The notes under the pieces were generated by a model that had not been told where the DNA came from, made no database searches, and was given only the letters and a program-made list of their open reading frames with translations. Positions 1 through 6,685 of a DNA stretch of 23,923 nt are shown here, piece after piece. This DNA is from Dysgonamonadaceae bacterium (GTDB taxonomy: Bacteria; Bacteroidota; Bacteroidia; Bacteroidales; Azobacteroidaceae). Position 1 is the first letter of the stretch. Each line of letters begins with the position of its first letter. Both the position numbers and the translations under genes were made by a program. Where the stretch lies: positions 1 through 23,923 of the forward strand of contig JAISKG010000174.1 of the NCBI GenBank assembly GCA_031261015.1, read 5' to 3'.

Positions 1-954
1 AAACTCTTTTCTCTTCAAATCAATAGCGACGAGGCTTTGCAAACGCCGATTAAAAAACAACAAATCTACGAAAAATTCTTTTTCATCCACTATCATACGA
101 TGTTGGTTGCCGATAAAAGCGAAATCTGTACCGAGCGCAAGGATAAATTTTTTGATATTACGCACAATTCCGTTTTCAATCATTCGCTCATCTTCATCGT
201 CAGGGTCTTCCATGTTGATAAAATCGAGTAAGTATTCGTCTTTGAAAGATTGCAAGGCAGCTTTTTGGAAATCAATGTTGGCAAGTGTTTTTGTGAAATT
301 ATTAACAATACTACCTTGTTGTTGAAACAAGTTAGCTTTAAGGTTGTATTTCAATTTTTCAACACTCCAAAATTCAGTAGCGCATTTTTGAATGTAAAAA
401 AGACGTTCTTTTATTGCATTGGTTTTTTCTAAAATAATACAGTGATGGGTAAAACCTACTTGCAAAAAATGAGACATATCCAATTCAGCAGTTGATAGCT
501 GTCGAATTGGAGTAATTAGCAAATTTGTATCTATTTCTAAATCGCCCATTGGCAATGGGCGATTTGAGTTGGCAATTTCGCCCATTATTGATGGGCGATT
601 TATATTTGTCAAATAATCAATAGGTTGCAATTCGTCCACTGACAATGGACAAATTGGAATGAAGGTGTTCCATGTTTCATAGAATTGCCTCATTCTCTTC
701 ATGTTGCTTTCAGAAAATCCTCTCAATCCCGGCAGTTCTTTCTGTAACTGTTGAGAGATGACTTCAATCGCATTTGTTCCCCAAAATCCTTTACGGCTAT
801 TGTTGGAAATGTATTCGCCAATGCCGAAATAAAGCGAAAGCATTTCACGATTCGCCAAAGCTGCCGCACGATAACGGCTTTTCAGAATTGCCTGCTTTAT
901 CGACTGAATGGCAGCGGTGTAGTTATTTGTAATGTTCTGTATCGTATCAGACAT
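1..954 (-). CDS. DUF1016/YhcG-type PD-(D/E)xK nuclease (C-terminus cut by window edge)
   Basis: An open frame of 318 codons runs from the ATG at 954 to base 1 without a stop; the remaining C-terminus lies outside the window. Residues about 15-95 match the DUF1016 N-terminal domain (LYFGIGEYIS, RKGFWGTNAIEVIS, LPGLRGFSESNMKRMRQFYE). Residues about 160-318 form the PD-(D/E)xK half, with visible core residues D297 (EKEFFVDLLFF) and D312-L-K314 (LVAIDLK). In this family such proteins are putative nucleases, often found beside restriction-modification genes. The linker between the domains (residues 102-158) holds four octapeptide repeats encoded by DNA palindromes; see the repeat entry. The gene starts 20 nt after the NdpA stop and has no promoter of its own that I can see, so it is probably the fifth gene of the operon that begins at 6685. 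The domain identification is firm; the biological role is inferred. Confidence 0.88.
   Translation of the reverse strand, partial: MSDTIQNITNNYTAAIQSIKQAILKSRYRAAALANREMLSLYFGIGEYISNNSRKGFWGTNAIEVISQQLQKELPGLRGFSESNMKRMRQFYETWNTFIPICPLSVDELQPIDYLTNINRPSIMGEIANSNRPLPMGDLEIDTNLLITPIRQLSTAELDMSHFLQVGFTHHCIILEKTNAIKERLFYIQKCATEFWSVEKLKYNLKANLFQQQGSIVNNFTKTLANIDFQKAALQSFKDEYLLDFINMEDPDDEDERMIENGIVRNIKKFILALGTDFAFIGNQHRMIVDEKEFFVDLLFFNRRLQSLVAIDLKRKEF
480..656. repeat. Four in-frame palindromes inside the DUF1016 gene
   Basis: Four inverted repeats lie within 177 bp. Centres and arms: 495 (480-491/499-510, two mismatches), 552 (539-551/553-565, 13 bp perfect), 588 (578-585/591-598, 8 bp perfect) and 642 (628-638/646-656, one mismatch). 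The centre distances 57, 36 and 54 are all multiples of three, and every centre falls on the first base of a codon at the fourth or fifth position of a repeated peptide unit. The units are C102-L109 (CPLSVDEL), R120-I127 (RPSIMGEI), R132-L139 (RPLPMGDL) and R151-L158 (RQLSTAEL). The 552 and 642 copies also agree at about 18 of 24 bases, so they look like diverged members of one element. All of this is read directly from the sequence; the origin is not known to me. Confidence 0.85.
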
Positions 955-974
955 ATTATCTTGTTTTTATTTGC

Positions 975-2018
975 TTATGTTTCTTCCTGATAATAGATTT
1001 TATAGAATTTTCCTTTTTCGTCGCGGCCTTGTTCGATTAAATTCCGGTCGCCGTGAATGTAAATGTCGAAGTTTTTATCCAATTTGATAACACTTTTTAG
1101 TGCACGAGTTTGTTTTTTGACAGCGCTTTCGGAAATAGTGAAATTATCGGCGATATCTACTGCGTATTCTTGTGCATAAACGGATTTATATTGATTGAAT
1201 TTTTCGATTATGTCAGGTTGTCCGATTACCTCGTTGGCAAATTCCTCTAAATTGAAATTGTCTTTGTCTTTGAGAAATTTTACTGCTTTATTTATTAAAT
1301 CGGCTTGGTCTGCGCCTGAAACTTTAAACTGTTGCGGAAGTTCATTTTTTACAAAATTCTTTGTAAGTGAAATAATATTCTGTGTATTGTAATACTCGTC
1401 TTTTCGTTGGCGAACGTGCAGAAAATCATCTATCCAATATTGCGCCTCCACGCCTTTGTTGGTGTTATCAACCACCGCCACAATATAGCCATTTTCTTTT
1501 TCGGTATTGAAAATCAAGCAACCCTTGTCTAATTTGTTGATATTGATACCTTTTTCGCTTTCAATTTCAAAGCCTTCGCCTTTCGGAAAAACTTTTAAGA
1601 ATGTATCTTTGTTTTCCGATTTGAACAGCCCGACTGCATCTACCGTTTCACCGTCAATAATACAATCTTTGAAATAGACGGTGTAAAACTCGCCGCCTTT
1701 GATTTTGGGGTGGGTACTTTGCTCGTATAAATGCTTGGCGAGATTTACGGATTGATCCAAAAGAGTATTGGGATTATCGAAAATCTTGCTTGCACAAACA
1801 AATATTTCATTCATGCTTATATCTATGTCGTGATAGAAATTGAAGTATTCGGGAGATTTGAAAGCGGAAACAAAGTAATTTATTAATATTTCTTTAATAT
1901 CATCTGTAATACTAAGAGTAGATTTTGTCAAAATGCAATTTTCATCTCTTAACTTATTACCTACAATATGTAATGATACATCTTTTATTTTTGATTCTAA
2001 CGCTGAAAACATAATCAT
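975..2018 (-). CDS. Nucleoid-associated protein, NdpA/YejK (37-kDa) family
   Basis: The 347-residue product resembles the Bacteroidota branch of the 37-kDa nucleoid-associated family (NA37, PF04245). Recognisable stretches are the N-terminal SKIKDVSLHIVGNK, the central LAKHLYEQSTHPKIKGGEF, KGCLIFNTEKENGYIVAVVD and the C-terminal FDIYIHGDRNLIEQG. E. coli YejK binds the nucleoid, but the family's precise function is not settled. The start ATG overlaps the stop of the upstream 881-codon gene as ATGA (2015-2018), which suggests translational coupling and a shared function; a second ATG at 2012 is also possible. Family assignment is confident; a defence role is only inferred from the neighbours. 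Confidence 0.85.
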   Translation of the reverse strand: MIMFSALESKIKDVSLHIVGNKLRDENCILTKSTLSITDDIKEILINYFVSAFKSPEYFNFYHDIDISMNEIFVCASKIFDNPNTLLDQSVNLAKHLYEQSTHPKIKGGEFYTVYFKDCIIDGETVDAVGLFKSENKDTFLKVFPKGEGFEIESEKGININKLDKGCLIFNTEKENGYIVAVVDNTNKGVEAQYWIDDFLHVRQRKDEYYNTQNIISLTKNFVKNELPQQFKVSGADQADLINKAVKFLKDKDNFNLEEFANEVIGQPDIIEKFNQYKSVYAQEYAVDIADNFTISESAVKKQTRALKSVIKLDKNFDIYIHGDRNLIEQGRDEKGKFYKIYYQEET

Positions 2019-4660
2019 ATTTTATTATAAAGGTTCAATTTTTCTTTTAATAATCGTCTAAATTCAATTTTCAATTCATTTTCTAATGTTTGTATATTTG
2101 GTACTTTGGCTTTATTCTTTGTATTAAGATAAACTTTACTCTTAAATTGAAAAACGCCATCAGGAATTGGTTTATTTTTTAATGCGTCCGAGAAATTAAG
2201 AATTGTATAATAATTTCCATAAACTCCGCGAATATTGAATTTGTAATTGATAATGATTTCTTCACATAGAATAATTGTTTTAAAATTCTCATCTTGTAAT
2301 TCTTTTACTCCGTCTAAGTTTTTGCCTTTTGATTGCGTTACATATTCCTTGCCTTTTTTATCTTGGTATTCTAAAGGTAAATCTATAGATTCGTCAAACA
2401 TATATTTAAACGCTTTGACATCATAATCTTGTAAACATAAAGAGGAATCAATATTTGTAAAACTCAATAAGAAATTTACACGTTCTCTATTTTCAAAATC
2501 CGAAAACGATATTTTAACGCTTTTTTCCTCAATAACATTTTTTTGTATTAAATCAGTAGAAATTGCTTTTTCGATTCTTTCTGCAATGGTTCGTGCAGGA
2601 CGGGAATTATATTCTTTATTTACTTCAAATTTATTTTCTTTTTGATTAAAAGTACCCGAAACTATTGCACGACTAAATACACTACTTACTAACGCCTGTT
2701 TATTAGGATTTACTTGTTCTAAATGTACTTCTATTGTAAAATTATTACTATTGGAAATTTGTTTCGGTTCTATTGCAAGAACTTTTGCTTTTAAATCATT
2801 CCCTAATTCTTGAAAATTGAATGAATTTATAGCAAAAGGGATATTATGTTGCAATAATGGATAAGAAATTTGACTACTGTCTAAAGTTTTGTCTTTTGTT
2901 TCAACAAGTCCAACCAATGATTCTATTTCCATAGGACTAAACAATAATCCCGTCATTAAGTGCATCATTTTTGTTCTGTCCGCATTTTTGAAATACACAC
3001 CTTTACGAGATAAAAATACTTTCAATTCAGGTGTTAATACAGTAGGTGAGTTTAAAAATGGTTTTATCGAATCACCATAAGGCAAATATTCCAATAAGTG
3101 AGATTGTATAAATATTTTCTTCTTTTTGTTTTTAGTTTCATCAAATTCTGTATTTAGTAAATCTTCTGTTATGGCGGGAACTCGTTGTAAATTAACTGTT
3201 TCGCATATTTTTAATTGTTGAATTCTTAACCTATTCGTCAACTCATCATTATTATATGAACGTACAACTTCATTTACTTCATTTTGATATTCTTCTTTAT
3301 AATCAGGAAAATAAACAATATATTCATTAGCCAATCCGCTCGTTAATCGAATTAACATCCAAATTATTTTTTTCAATCTGTCTCTACTATATTCGTCTGA
3401 ACAAAACATCAATACACTAATTTTATTATTATCTTCTTTTACAATGGGAATAATAGAAGAATTTATGTATTGAGGCGGCAGATAAATATCTCGTTTCCCT
3501 ATTTTTTCTAATGTAGAAGTATCTTCTGTTATGGGATACAAGAATTTAACAGATAATTCAGGTCTATATGTTCTCGCTGTAATAATAGAACTAATTAGAA
3601 AATTAGCCTTTTTGTTATCTATTACATAGTAAATCAAATCTTTGTTTAGAATATTGGATTTATAATAAGTGCTAATTTCATTTATTAGATTTCTATCTAA
3701 ATCTGTTTCTTTGGTTGATAATAAAAATTGAATACTGTGTTCCGTTAAGTTACTTATTGCTATTTTTCCTTGATTGATTAGTTGTTCGCGTACTAAATCT
3801 GTACTGTAAATATTTTGTTTGATTAATGCTTGAATATTTTGTTGATACTCCGCTTCCAAAGAACTATTTATGTAAATCACATCATTTTCATTGTCTTTTA
3901 ATCTACTCTTATAATTGCTCCAAAACTCAACTTTATATTCTTCATCTTGGTCTAATTTATCATTGTGTATAGTAACGCATTCATTTACATTAGGTTTACT
4001 CCACCCTATCAAGTGAAGTATATGTTTTATAATCGTTGTCTTAATATCGTCCCGTTCAACAGTTTCAGCAGGAAGTAATAATGAATATGCAGATTGTTCC
4101 AAATAGCGTTCCACTGCAATTAAATCATTTAATAAATACTGCTCAAAATCGAAACGATTTAGCACTTTCCCAACACTTGAATTAAGCAAAAACTGTTGAT
4201 TCAAACTTAATGCAAAAAGTTGAGCCAATTTGTTACTTATTTTATTCCTATTTTTATTTTCAAAGAAATCGTTAATCTTTGATAATATCAGTGTATTAAA
4301 ATCAGATATTGAAATGTCTATGTTTTTAATATCAACATTCCCAATCTTATTATTTTGTTGTGTATGCGTTGCATCATTCATTCTGCCAACTAAACACAGA
4401 GTATATTCGGAGGCATTGGGACAATTTGTTTCAAGTTCGTTTGCCCATTTAGTTACAGCAGGCAAAGCAAAAGGATTTATTGAAGATTTAACTTGCATTA
4501 CCTTTTTTGTACCATTACTGTATTCCCAGCAAATATCAACTTTTTCAGATTCATTGTCAGGTTCAACACAAACAGAAAGCCATTCCTTATCATTAAAGGA
4601 ATCCAGAACCGCTACAAGAGTTTGAATTATGTAGCCTTTTATTGCATAGTGTGCATTCAT
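2015..4660 (-). CDS. Large protein with N-terminal PD-(D/E)xK-like nuclease domain, possible GapS4b-like C-terminal part
   Basis: An 881-residue protein. Its first about 95 residues look like a dsDNA endonuclease domain of the DUF4297/Cap4 kind: YxxxGYIIQ at the start, E33, then V41-D42-I43 and Q56-V57-K58-S59-S60, the usual E-D-QxK spacing. Residues 100-500 are helical-looking and I do not recognise them; no Walker A motif is present, so it is not an obvious ATPase. Residues about 523-870 (LPYGDSIKPFLNSPTVL, SRKGVYF, GLLFSPMEIESLVG, FSDFENRERVNFLLSF) remind me of GapS4b, a partner in the two-gene GAPS4 defence system, but this rests on memory and is tentative. The gene is visibly more AT-rich than the housekeeping genes to the right. 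It follows the restriction endonuclease by 35 nt and overlaps the NdpA gene by 4 nt. An anti-phage function is inferred, not shown. Confidence 0.6.
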   Translation of the reverse strand: MNAHYAIKGYIIQTLVAVLDSFNDKEWLSVCVEPDNESEKVDICWEYSNGTKKVMQVKSSINPFALPAVTKWANELETNCPNASEYTLCLVGRMNDATHTQQNNKIGNVDIKNIDISISDFNTLILSKINDFFENKNRNKISNKLAQLFALSLNQQFLLNSSVGKVLNRFDFEQYLLNDLIAVERYLEQSAYSLLLPAETVERDDIKTTIIKHILHLIGWSKPNVNECVTIHNDKLDQDEEYKVEFWSNYKSRLKDNENDVIYINSSLEAEYQQNIQALIKQNIYSTDLVREQLINQGKIAISNLTEHSIQFLLSTKETDLDRNLINEISTYYKSNILNKDLIYYVIDNKKANFLISSIITARTYRPELSVKFLYPITEDTSTLEKIGKRDIYLPPQYINSSIIPIVKEDNNKISVLMFCSDEYSRDRLKKIIWMLIRLTSGLANEYIVYFPDYKEEYQNEVNEVVRSYNNDELTNRLRIQQLKICETVNLQRVPAITEDLLNTEFDETKNKKKKIFIQSHLLEYLPYGDSIKPFLNSPTVLTPELKVFLSRKGVYFKNADRTKMMHLMTGLLFSPMEIESLVGLVETKDKTLDSSQISYPLLQHNIPFAINSFNFQELGNDLKAKVLAIEPKQISNSNNFTIEVHLEQVNPNKQALVSSVFSRAIVSGTFNQKENKFEVNKEYNSRPARTIAERIEKAISTDLIQKNVIEEKSVKISFSDFENRERVNFLLSFTNIDSSLCLQDYDVKAFKYMFDESIDLPLEYQDKKGKEYVTQSKGKNLDGVKELQDENFKTIILCEEIIINYKFNIRGVYGNYYTILNFSDALKNKPIPDGVFQFKSKVYLNTKNKAKVPNIQTLENELKIEFRRLLKEKLNLYNKI

Positions 4661-4695: not shown

Positions 4696-5814
4696 TTAGA
4701 ATTCCGCATCTTCCTCCTCATAATTAAACTCCACCTTGCTTTGCAAAACAATTTCATCAAGTATATTATTCAAATAGCCTTGTTTTACGGCTTTTTGGAA
4801 ACGAATAGTAAGTATAGAAATGTTTATAACTTCTTCAATACAGGCCATATATTTTTTAACTATTGCTGCGATTGAGTAGGTTTTGTTTGCATTGTCCTTT
4901 ATCTTTTGCAAAATATCTTCGGCGTTTTCGGTTGATTTGATTATAAACGAAATCGGGTATTTCTGAATTTTGTCAATATCAAGAAAATATTTTTTGAAGT
5001 CCAATGTTTCAGTTACTTGGAAAAATTTACCGAGCGGTCGCATTACAAAATCTATTCCGCCATCGTTGGCGTTTGTTCTGCCTGTTTTGTACAACGTTAG
5101 ATTTTCTTCGTTTAATTTGTCAATTTCAAAACCCCAATAAATTTTTTGGTTGTGATAGTAATATTTTAGGATTGAATAACTTACAATTTCAAACAATCGC
5201 GCATCTACATTCGGGGCAAGCAAACCGATAATAAATTCTTCGACTTTTTCGGGTCTGGTTGTCCCTATTTTTTGCAGTTCCTCGCACGATTTCACAAAAT
5301 GCAAAAAAGCATCTTGTTTTGTGCGCACATATTCGTCTATGATTTTAATGATTGTTTCGGCAATGTTGAATGTCTTTTTGCCAACCTGTATTTTTAACAA
5401 GTTTTCATTTAACCAATAGCGATTTGTTGCATTATCATGAATGATAGGTTTAAATTCAGAGGTTGGAAAAAACTTTTCAAACTCTGAGTTCACACGATTA
5501 TTCAGCGCGTGATTTTGAAGTTTGCTGCCAAAAGGCAATTCTCTTTGTCGCGCAAAAAGAATACTGAATAGCGCACCTTCGTAAGCGGAATAATCGCCTT
5601 TTTTATGATAATTTTTGGCGATATAATCTTCAATAATTACATAAATGGCATAAAGATTTGCAAAACTGCCCCTTGCTTTTGAGCCGCGATTGGCAGAACG
5701 AGTTTTCTCATTCAGATATTGAATAAGCAGACTTTTTTCAAAAACAGTTTCAGCATTTTTGCCAAATTCTTGTTTTAAGATTTGCTTGATATTTTCAGTA
5801 AACGAGTGCTCCAT
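4696..5814 (-). CDS. Type II restriction endonuclease (probable partner of the adjacent methyltransferase)
   Basis: A 372-residue protein. The C-terminal half has a PD-(D/E)xK-like core: G245-R-T-N-A-N-D251-G-G-I-D255-F followed by FFQVTE (Q266-V-T-E269). The third position is T/E where lysine is most common, a variation seen in some restriction enzymes. The N-terminal half (AYEGALFSILFARQRELPFG) is typical of stand-alone type II enzymes of this size. Its first 20 nt overlap the 3' end of the methyltransferase gene on the same strand, the arrangement expected for a coupled restriction-modification pair. The specificity is not readable from the protein; by analogy with the partner methyltransferase (YhdJ) it may cut ATGCAT. 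I could not assign a named endonuclease family with confidence. Confidence 0.75.
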   Translation of the reverse strand: MEHSFTENIKQILKQEFGKNAETVFEKSLLIQYLNEKTRSANRGSKARGSFANLYAIYVIIEDYIAKNYHKKGDYSAYEGALFSILFARQRELPFGSKLQNHALNNRVNSEFEKFFPTSEFKPIIHDNATNRYWLNENLLKIQVGKKTFNIAETIIKIIDEYVRTKQDAFLHFVKSCEELQKIGTTRPEKVEEFIIGLLAPNVDARLFEIVSYSILKYYYHNQKIYWGFEIDKLNEENLTLYKTGRTNANDGGIDFVMRPLGKFFQVTETLDFKKYFLDIDKIQKYPISFIIKSTENAEDILQKIKDNANKTYSIAAIVKKYMACIEEVINISILTIRFQKAVKQGYLNNILDEIVLQSKVEFNYEEEDAEF

Positions 5815-6685
5815 CTAATTCTTCTTCAAATAAATTAAACATTGGAACTTTGGGTAAATCTACTTTTTTTGTTTCAAAACTGCGAATTTCCTTTTGCAGT
5901 TTTTCGCCCTTATATTCTGTGGCTAATTGCAATCGGCGCAAACCAATTTTCACATAATCTTCCTGCAATTCAATTCCGATTGATTTTCTGCCTAATTGTT
6001 GAGCCACATAACTTGTGGTAAAAGTGCCTGAAAATGGGTCTAAAACCGTATCACCAACATTAGAACTCGCTTTGATAATTCGTTCCAGCAAAGCAATTGG
6101 TTTTTGTGTCGGATGATTTTCATATTCGTCCATTCGATAACGTACACGTGCAAATTCCCAAACATTTCCGGGAACTTTTTCAGAATTATAAACTTGTGGC
6201 GGATTTTTGCGGTAATCAATCAACTTCCGCTTCGCACCCGTTTTAGCTTCTACCAAAATATCATTGGCGTTAAATGTATAATGATCCGGGTCTTTTACGC
6301 AAAATAAAATGGGTTCATACATAGAACCATAGTAATTTTTTGCCTGAACACCTGAACTGTCATAGTACCAAATCAAACGAGAAAGTATGGTCATTTTTTT
6401 GCGTAGAAAAATGTCCAAATAGGGCATAAATTGCGTAGAAGTCATAATGTACATACTGCCATTGGCTCGTAATTTATTGACACACAAATCAATCCACCTG
6501 TAACACCAACTCAAATAATCTTCGTCTGTCGCCCATTTGTCTTTATGTCCATTAAAATTTTTGCCTATATTGTAAGGCGGATCAACAAAAATTAAATCCA
6601 CAGAATTATCAGGCACCTCAGCAGATAAAACTTCCAACGAATCACCTTGTATAATTTTATGATTTTGATATTCCAATGTTTCCAT
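5795..6685 (-). CDS. DNA adenine N6-methyltransferase, YhdJ-like
   Basis: A 296-residue DNA methyltransferase of the N6_N4_Mtase family (PF01555), beta-type order: catalytic DPPY motif (D35-P-P-Y38) near the N-terminus and the AdoMet-binding DPFSG motif (216-220) near the C-terminus. Long stretches such as SSGVQAK, YGSMYEPIL, VEAKTGAKRKLIDYRKNPPQ, KVPGNVWEF and YENHPTQKP closely follow E. coli YhdJ (M.EcoKII), which methylates the A in ATGCAT. In E. coli it is an orphan enzyme; here a restriction endonuclease gene overlaps its 3' end by 20 nt, so it is probably the protective half of a restriction-modification system. It is the first gene after the promoter at 6715-6746, so the methyltransferase is made before the nuclease. 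The ATGCAT specificity is an inference from similarity. Confidence 0.92.
   Translation of the reverse strand: METLEYQNHKIIQGDSLEVLSAEVPDNSVDLIFVDPPYNIGKNFNGHKDKWATDEDYLSWCYRWIDLCVNKLRANGSMYIMTSTQFMPYLDIFLRKKMTILSRLIWYYDSSGVQAKNYYGSMYEPILFCVKDPDHYTFNANDILVEAKTGAKRKLIDYRKNPPQVYNSEKVPGNVWEFARVRYRMDEYENHPTQKPIALLERIIKASSNVGDTVLDPFSGTFTTSYVAQQLGRKSIGIELQEDYVKIGLRRLQLATEYKGEKLQKEIRSFETKKVDLPKVPMFNLFEEELDGALVY

Follow-up and report, generated by a model that had tools for sequence, protein, structure and literature searches.

Four palindromes inside a nuclease gene of a Dysgonamonadaceae bacterium are, we believe, DNA sites bound by the gene's own protein product. The gene belongs to the DUF1016/YhcG family (PF17761, PF06250; COG4804) of PD-(D/E)XK nucleases and lies at 1..954 on the minus strand of a 23,923-nucleotide stretch (the window; GenBank assembly GCA_031261015.1, contig JAISKG010000174.1, positions 1 to 23,923). 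It comprises 318 codons, and its 3′ end is past the contig edge. From comparisons across the family and a structural model we put the probability of this reading at about 85%, and our explanation as a whole is held only slightly less firmly. We know of no established function for YhcG/DUF1016.

A Pfam scan of the window protein gave DUF1016_N at residues 19-104 (100.2 bits; gathering score 32.8) and YhcG_C at residues 235-318 (88.4 bits; gathering score 32.5). The nuclease also matches the PADLOC model PDC-S02, in which PDC presumably stands for phage-defence candidate. At the contig edge the gene breaks off at YhcG_C position 83; another contig of the same genome (contig 169:1-195, L017) begins with YhcG_C positions 90-156 and is possibly the remainder of the gene. 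The palindromes, all on the minus strand, occupy 629..655 (centre 642; AATTTGTCCATTGTCAGTGGACGAATT in gene sense), 575..601 (centre 588), 539..565 (centre 552; AAATCGCCCATTGCCAATGGGCGATTT) and 482..508 (centre 495). Scored over the 12 symmetric pairs at distances 2-13 from the centre, they form 10, 9, 12 and 9 pairs, respectively, and the copy at 495 is the weakest, with 5 of 8 pairs in its inner core. One of the four has perfect 13-bp arms round a single base, and the rest are quasi-palindromes. A sequence-only reading of the window had described these centres, at spacings of 57, 36 and 54 nucleotides, each on the first position of a codon and all in the linker between the two domains; we confirmed every one of these points.

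The window gene was compared with shuffled versions by its best arm, the sum of its best four arms and the number of arms scoring at least 8. These three values were reached by 0, 0 and 0 of 300 gene-wide synonymous shuffles, by 0, 0 and 2 of 300 gene-wide codon shuffles and by 0, 0 and 0 of 500 shuffles of codon order in the linker. Synonymous shuffles confined to the linker reached them in 84, 2 and 49 of 500 cases, because repeated codons swap between the copies. Codon shuffling, proposed earlier as a way to expose the palindromes as chance, therefore did not do so, although this outcome is least clear when the shuffling stays within the linker. In the 2.0 Mb available of the bacterium's own genome (72% complete), the window core pattern with up to three mismatches gave 30 forward and 15 reversed-pattern matches, and every match at 0-1 mismatch lies inside the window gene. 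A second YhcG gene of this genome, on contig 196, has two linker palindromes with arms unlike those of the window, which shifted the question from a repeated element to a trait of the family.

Within the order, 171 of 295 genomes have a YhcG_C match, which lies above the cut-off in 168, and YhcG/DUF1016 occurs in 38 of 185 sampled gammaproteobacteria as well as in Escherichia coli K-12. The genes came from the order's genomes (the best-scoring among the matches listed), 80 loci in named GTDB genomes, viral contigs and additional genomes; the sampling was set by what the searches returned. The 439 hidden Markov model matches included 122 duplicates, leaving 317 genes, and setting aside 11 without a mapped helix or W left 306. 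Palindromes in a first set of 212 genes numbered 10.7 per kb in linkers, compared with 0.43 per kb in the rest of these genes; a single codon phase was shared by 236 of 241. In the enlarged set, at least one palindrome in this phase (phase 0) is present in 275 of the 306 mapped genes, well above the one and three genes obtained for the other codon phases and the 12 for a control stretch in the nuclease domain. Absence from homologues, which would have pointed to chance, was thus not what the linkers of the family revealed. One site is present in 203 of the 275 genes, two in 59, three in nine and four in four. By source, sites were found in 77 of 81 genes from named GTDB genomes, which span many phyla and include an archaeon and a cyanobacterium, in 34 of 38 from other bacteria, 49 of 54 from viral contigs, 114 of 132 from the own order and the single E. 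coli gene. Many of the 31 remaining genes retain weaker palindromes, and an own-order group with helices such as SPQNLWRM, delimited by eye and not on a tree, has none. Seven own-order YhcG genes that keep helix and nuclease without a palindrome (L033, L036, L041, L062, L068, L071 and L072) appear to be natural losers. A D..(D/E)xK-like motif is present in 290 of the 306 genes.

The site, which falls between two helical stretches of the N-terminal domain, has a common layout in a single codon phase: an A/T-rich flank, an 8-bp half-site, a 3-bp centre, the mirrored half-site and a second A/T-rich flank. The letters of the arms vary between genes while the symmetry persists. Among 226 distinct sites, which were selected for symmetry, positions 3-8 pair in 95-99% although each of them is variable, position 1 pairs in 67%, and positions 10-13 are A/T-rich and usually read AATT. 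A similar picture emerged when each of 211 linkers was represented simply by its best phase-0 centre. When 351 sites were recoded synonymously, their symmetry dropped to 5.92 pairs out of 12, from 10.55.

The base sequence of the site follows residues of the protein. Mutual information was computed between site positions and protein columns, with linker columns excluded and the 31 palindrome-less genes left out; family residue positions follow the numbering of one member (L046) and were mapped to the others by sequence. The peaks were residue 91 with position 7 (z 11.3), residue 95 with position 5 (z 8.0), residue 94 with positions 8 (z 6.5) and 9 (z 5.8), and residue 194 with position 3 (z 5.6). 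Further peaks outside this code were residue 266 with position 11 (z 6.2), 66 with 12 (z 5.4) and 165 with 3 (z 5.2). Residues 91, 94 and 95 (spaced i, i+3, i+4) share a face of a predicted helix before the linker and go with the outer positions 5-9; residues 194 and 195 lie on another predicted helix, after the linker, and go with the inner positions 2-3. Arg91 occurs with G at position 7 in 139 of 140 cases, Glu94 with C at position 8 in 31 of 31 and Arg195 with C at position 2 in 103 of 103. The pairings seen, Arg-G, Glu-C and Asn/Gln-A, appear to us to match familiar protein-DNA chemistry. On a tree, changes of residue and base share branches far above expectation, and disjoint pairs of relatives agree; eight of nine control columns showed no excess, column 98 being borderline, and the non-cognate pairs 91/5 and 95/8 are more weakly associated. 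The strongest single result is a silent one. Where the codon at -9..-7 of the site stands for valine, it ends in G in 51 of 51 genes with Arg91 and in 1 of 36 others, a pattern to which contact between parts of the protein cannot give rise on its own.

In the window gene, the first recognition helix is predicted at residues 82-95, with its codons at 670..711 on the minus strand. It supplies S83, K86 and R87 at family positions 91, 94 and 95, whose covarying partners across YhcG genes are palindrome positions 7, 8/9 and 5, in that order. The predicted second DNA-reading helix (residues 198-206; 337..363, minus strand) supplies V198 and E199 at family positions 194 and 195, which go with positions 3 and 2. 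K86 is accompanied by G at position 8 in all four sites, R87 by C at position 5 in three, V198 by T at position 3 in three, and S83 by C or T at position 7 in three. The window thus largely fits the code, with the site at 495 as the exception. By eye, the closest relative found (L206, 51% identity) has Asn for Arg at 95 and A for C at position 5, as the code would lead one to expect; contrary to it, there is G at position 7 despite the same serine.

A structural model suggests how the protein may read such a site. The modelled N-terminal domain resembles the DNA-binding domain of ParB/Noc and probably shares its fold, and a palindrome of two short half-sites is common to the YhcG system and to ParB-parS/Noc-NBS. 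A parS site inside spo0J of B. subtilis would be a single-gene precedent, which our literature search did not confirm. In ParB/Noc, a helix of the helix-turn-helix reads outer bases and another position reads inner bases (PMC7383237). The covariation and the model would fit the same division in YhcG at the level of whole helices. YhcG differs from ParB/Noc in the PD-(D/E)XK nuclease domain that follows, in keeping the site in its own gene family-wide and in the wide diversification of the site sequence; moreover, the Pfam scan of the window protein gave only DUF1016_N and YhcG_C and no ParB N-terminal (CTP-binding) domain. A sequence search of solved structures returned two weak matches only (E 0.09 and 0.11). 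The nuclease assignment of YhcG dates from 2005, when the N-terminal domain of about 200 amino acids was called helical and had no structural match; the portion of that account available to us holds no in-gene site, recognition code or ParB/Noc-like assignment (PMC1189080). The titles and beginnings of abstracts listed for DUF1016/YhcG, a search that most subscription papers fell outside, contained no description of an in-gene palindrome, and a literature search on intragenic operators found nothing.

The yhcG gene of E. coli K-12 carries three phase-0 palindromes, one with 15-bp arms. Within the 116 kb scanned around it, CAGAC-N3-GTCTG occurs five times, always in the 16 kb around yhcG: three times in the gene, once about 28 nucleotides after its stop and once shortly after gltD; there is none in the 100 kb of flanks. 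The gltD site found a BLAST match in 5341 of 5426 genomes, at a median of two places each, the best place often being in yhcG. In four other strains that we fetched, gltD and yhcG are adjacent, and in K-12 the gltF-yhcF genes lie between them; a YhcG-type palindrome is found near the left junction of these genes (L231:618-700). Two alleles are informative. Between FUJ80154 and K-12, full 60-nucleotide blocks of yhcG outside nucleotides 241-420 match at 53-60 of 60 positions, whereas the three blocks with helix and linker (nucleotides 241-420) agree at 29-41 of 60 when gaps are counted; the final block, which is shorter, has 47 matches. The blocks for recognition helix and site differ as a unit. 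The K-12 helix and linker block matches 3915 of 5426 genomes and that of FUJ80154 469; the conserved K-12 nuclease block matches 3665, so the remainder of yhcG varies between strains too. In the non-coding site after the stop, K-12 and FUJ80154 differ by a paired change at ±7 and at the centre in an otherwise identical sequence. The alleles recall HsdS, in which target-recognition domains are exchanged, in that a specificity segment differs within a conserved gene; here the block that differs includes the DNA site as well as the reading helix. Among 369 gammaproteobacterial genomes, nine had a DNA match to E. coli yhcG, the sole extensive one (>600 nucleotides) at 67% identity. E. coli 13P484A (L476) has only an incomplete piece of yhcG, with an IS1 element after it.

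Some sites lie outside the linkers. A scan of about 1.1 Mb of loci for own-type sites, with the reversed template as control, gave 14 against 0 at no fewer than 14 of 16 core letters and 17 against 7 at 13 of 16. Four of those 14 follow a stop by 12-30 nucleotides. Two others precede a predicted start by 21-26 nucleotides, as does one more site that scores 13 of 16. At one locus (L074), an own-type palindrome 17 nucleotides after the stop has an outer arm ending in TTTT and could double as a terminator. A CAGACA-type pattern of 27 nucleotides with up to two mismatches occurs in 56 of the 295 genomes (control pattern, 0), 54 of which also have YhcG as judged by eye. Among the 35 such sites in the 30 loci listed, 26 fall inside a YhcG frame and eight elsewhere; a ninth lies 36 nucleotides outside a YhcG frame that is truncated. 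Five matches to another, stricter type of pattern were found across the 295 genomes, always in YhcG genes. Neighbours of the eight include two SLFN_AlbA_2 proteins, AbiEii, ResIII/HSDR_N and DUF4062 proteins as well as EF-Tu, a glycosyltransferase and DUF6298; YhcG-type palindromes stand beside SLFN_AlbA_2, AbiEii, HsdR-like and DUF4062 genes at L452, L463, L459, L462 and L466, and these families are often found in defence islands. For paralogues within one genome, the orthogonality of their sites was not above expectation.

That the palindromes merely follow from peptide or codon bias is next to impossible. The linker peptide is indeed alike in many members (Q-Q-x-V-x-Q), but the shuffles, the survey, the loss of symmetry on recoding and the silent position that tracks a residue of another helix rule out chance and codon bias, and the paired change in a non-coding copy adds to this. 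Inversion between the palindromes was likewise rejected: one plus-strand frame reads similar peptides but contains stops. The sequence-only reading had offered, among others, a palindromic element that spreads in frame, comparable to Rickettsia palindromic elements, which one paper describes as palindromic DNA translated in frame within genes (PMC4316617). In-frame translated palindromic DNA inside genes is shared, within-gene copies suggest duplication, and about a quarter of the CAGACA-type sites lie outside a YhcG frame. The YhcG sites, however, occupy a single homologous position in one family across phyla, have a minority of copies outside it where these were sought and none for the strict pattern, were not found scattered over unrelated genes and have no single consensus; their arms differ between genes yet match the helices of the protein and so its specificity. 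We therefore regard a mobile element as very improbable. An RNA hairpin translated within the gene, which might pause translation between the domains or let the protein bind its own mRNA, is improbable too, if less extremely so. The linker mRNA can fold strongly in prediction (-62.4 kcal/mol, z -8.3), but a search of window 1-1200 against Rfam gave nothing at gathering score, some outer flanks (AAAA/AATT) are unpaired, and copies stand after stops and in intergenic DNA. Arm mismatches at positions 3-8 (G:T 15, A:C 29, other 28; earlier sets are alike) lack an excess of G:U and so favour duplex DNA over mRNA, as does covariation of the bases with two protein helices.

The other proposal of that reading, a self-matching DNA site that is the protein's own target, gained support from the two-helix covariation and the ParB/Noc-like model. 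A homodimer would bind the palindrome through its ParB/Noc-like domain, with one half-site read by each protomer, and would deliver the PD-(D/E)XK domain to the gene that encodes it. Binding to sites in the gene, and sometimes to others just before its start or after its stop, may then limit transcription of a potentially harmful nuclease; autogenous control of this kind is our tentative choice for the purpose of the sites, at somewhat less than even odds. With the site beside the recognition-helix codons, a recombination event could carry both specificity and site, a possibility to which the two E. coli alleles point, and a site inside the gene cannot be parted from it on transfer. Self-targeting also has room, given how few copies stand just before a start. 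On this view the nuclease would use the in-gene site as the address at which it cleaves or loads, and the site would stay where it is since it is the gene that is attacked; copies of the gene on sister mobile elements, incoming plasmids or phages or in rival alleles would be cut or excluded. The presence of the site inside most of the genes, the small number of copies just before a start, the nuclease motif, the PADLOC model and the joint change of helix and site between alleles speak for it, as do YhcG genes on viral contigs and, according to two papers, on mobile elements (PMC4316617, PMC13183296). Cutting the own chromosome would nevertheless be harmful unless conditional, no protecting partner was identified, intergenic copies exist, and paralogues are not mutually orthogonal beyond expectation; we consider self-targeting rather unlikely.

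Near the nuclease gene the window holds a type II restriction-modification pair (4696-6685), with a methyltransferase matching the PRK11524 model over cut-off and a match to a type II restriction enzyme model. At 2015-4660, an 881-amino-acid protein matches the anti-phage models GapS4a and GapS4b in one chain, below cut-off, and its gene adjoins one for an NA37 nucleoid-associated protein (975-2018).

A broader principle is conceivable, though we hold it with less confidence than autogenous control: a nuclease gene of bacteria and archaea would have to carry, within its reading frame, a co-evolving recognition site of its product, and the enzyme would act on copies of its own gene, either to limit itself or to keep out sister mobile elements and rival alleles. 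A homing endonuclease gene interrupts its own site, whereas YhcG genes hold intact sites; self-addressed nucleases, if real, would be the reverse of homing. For the family, the N-terminal domain gains a likely fold and role, and a candidate DNA target for most YhcG members can be read directly from the gene. Each gene would state both halves of a protein-DNA recognition code that occurs in nature. It is seldom so clear that the specificity of a protein has shaped its own coding sequence, silent positions included. The function of YhcG becomes testable in E. coli K-12 by ordinary assays.
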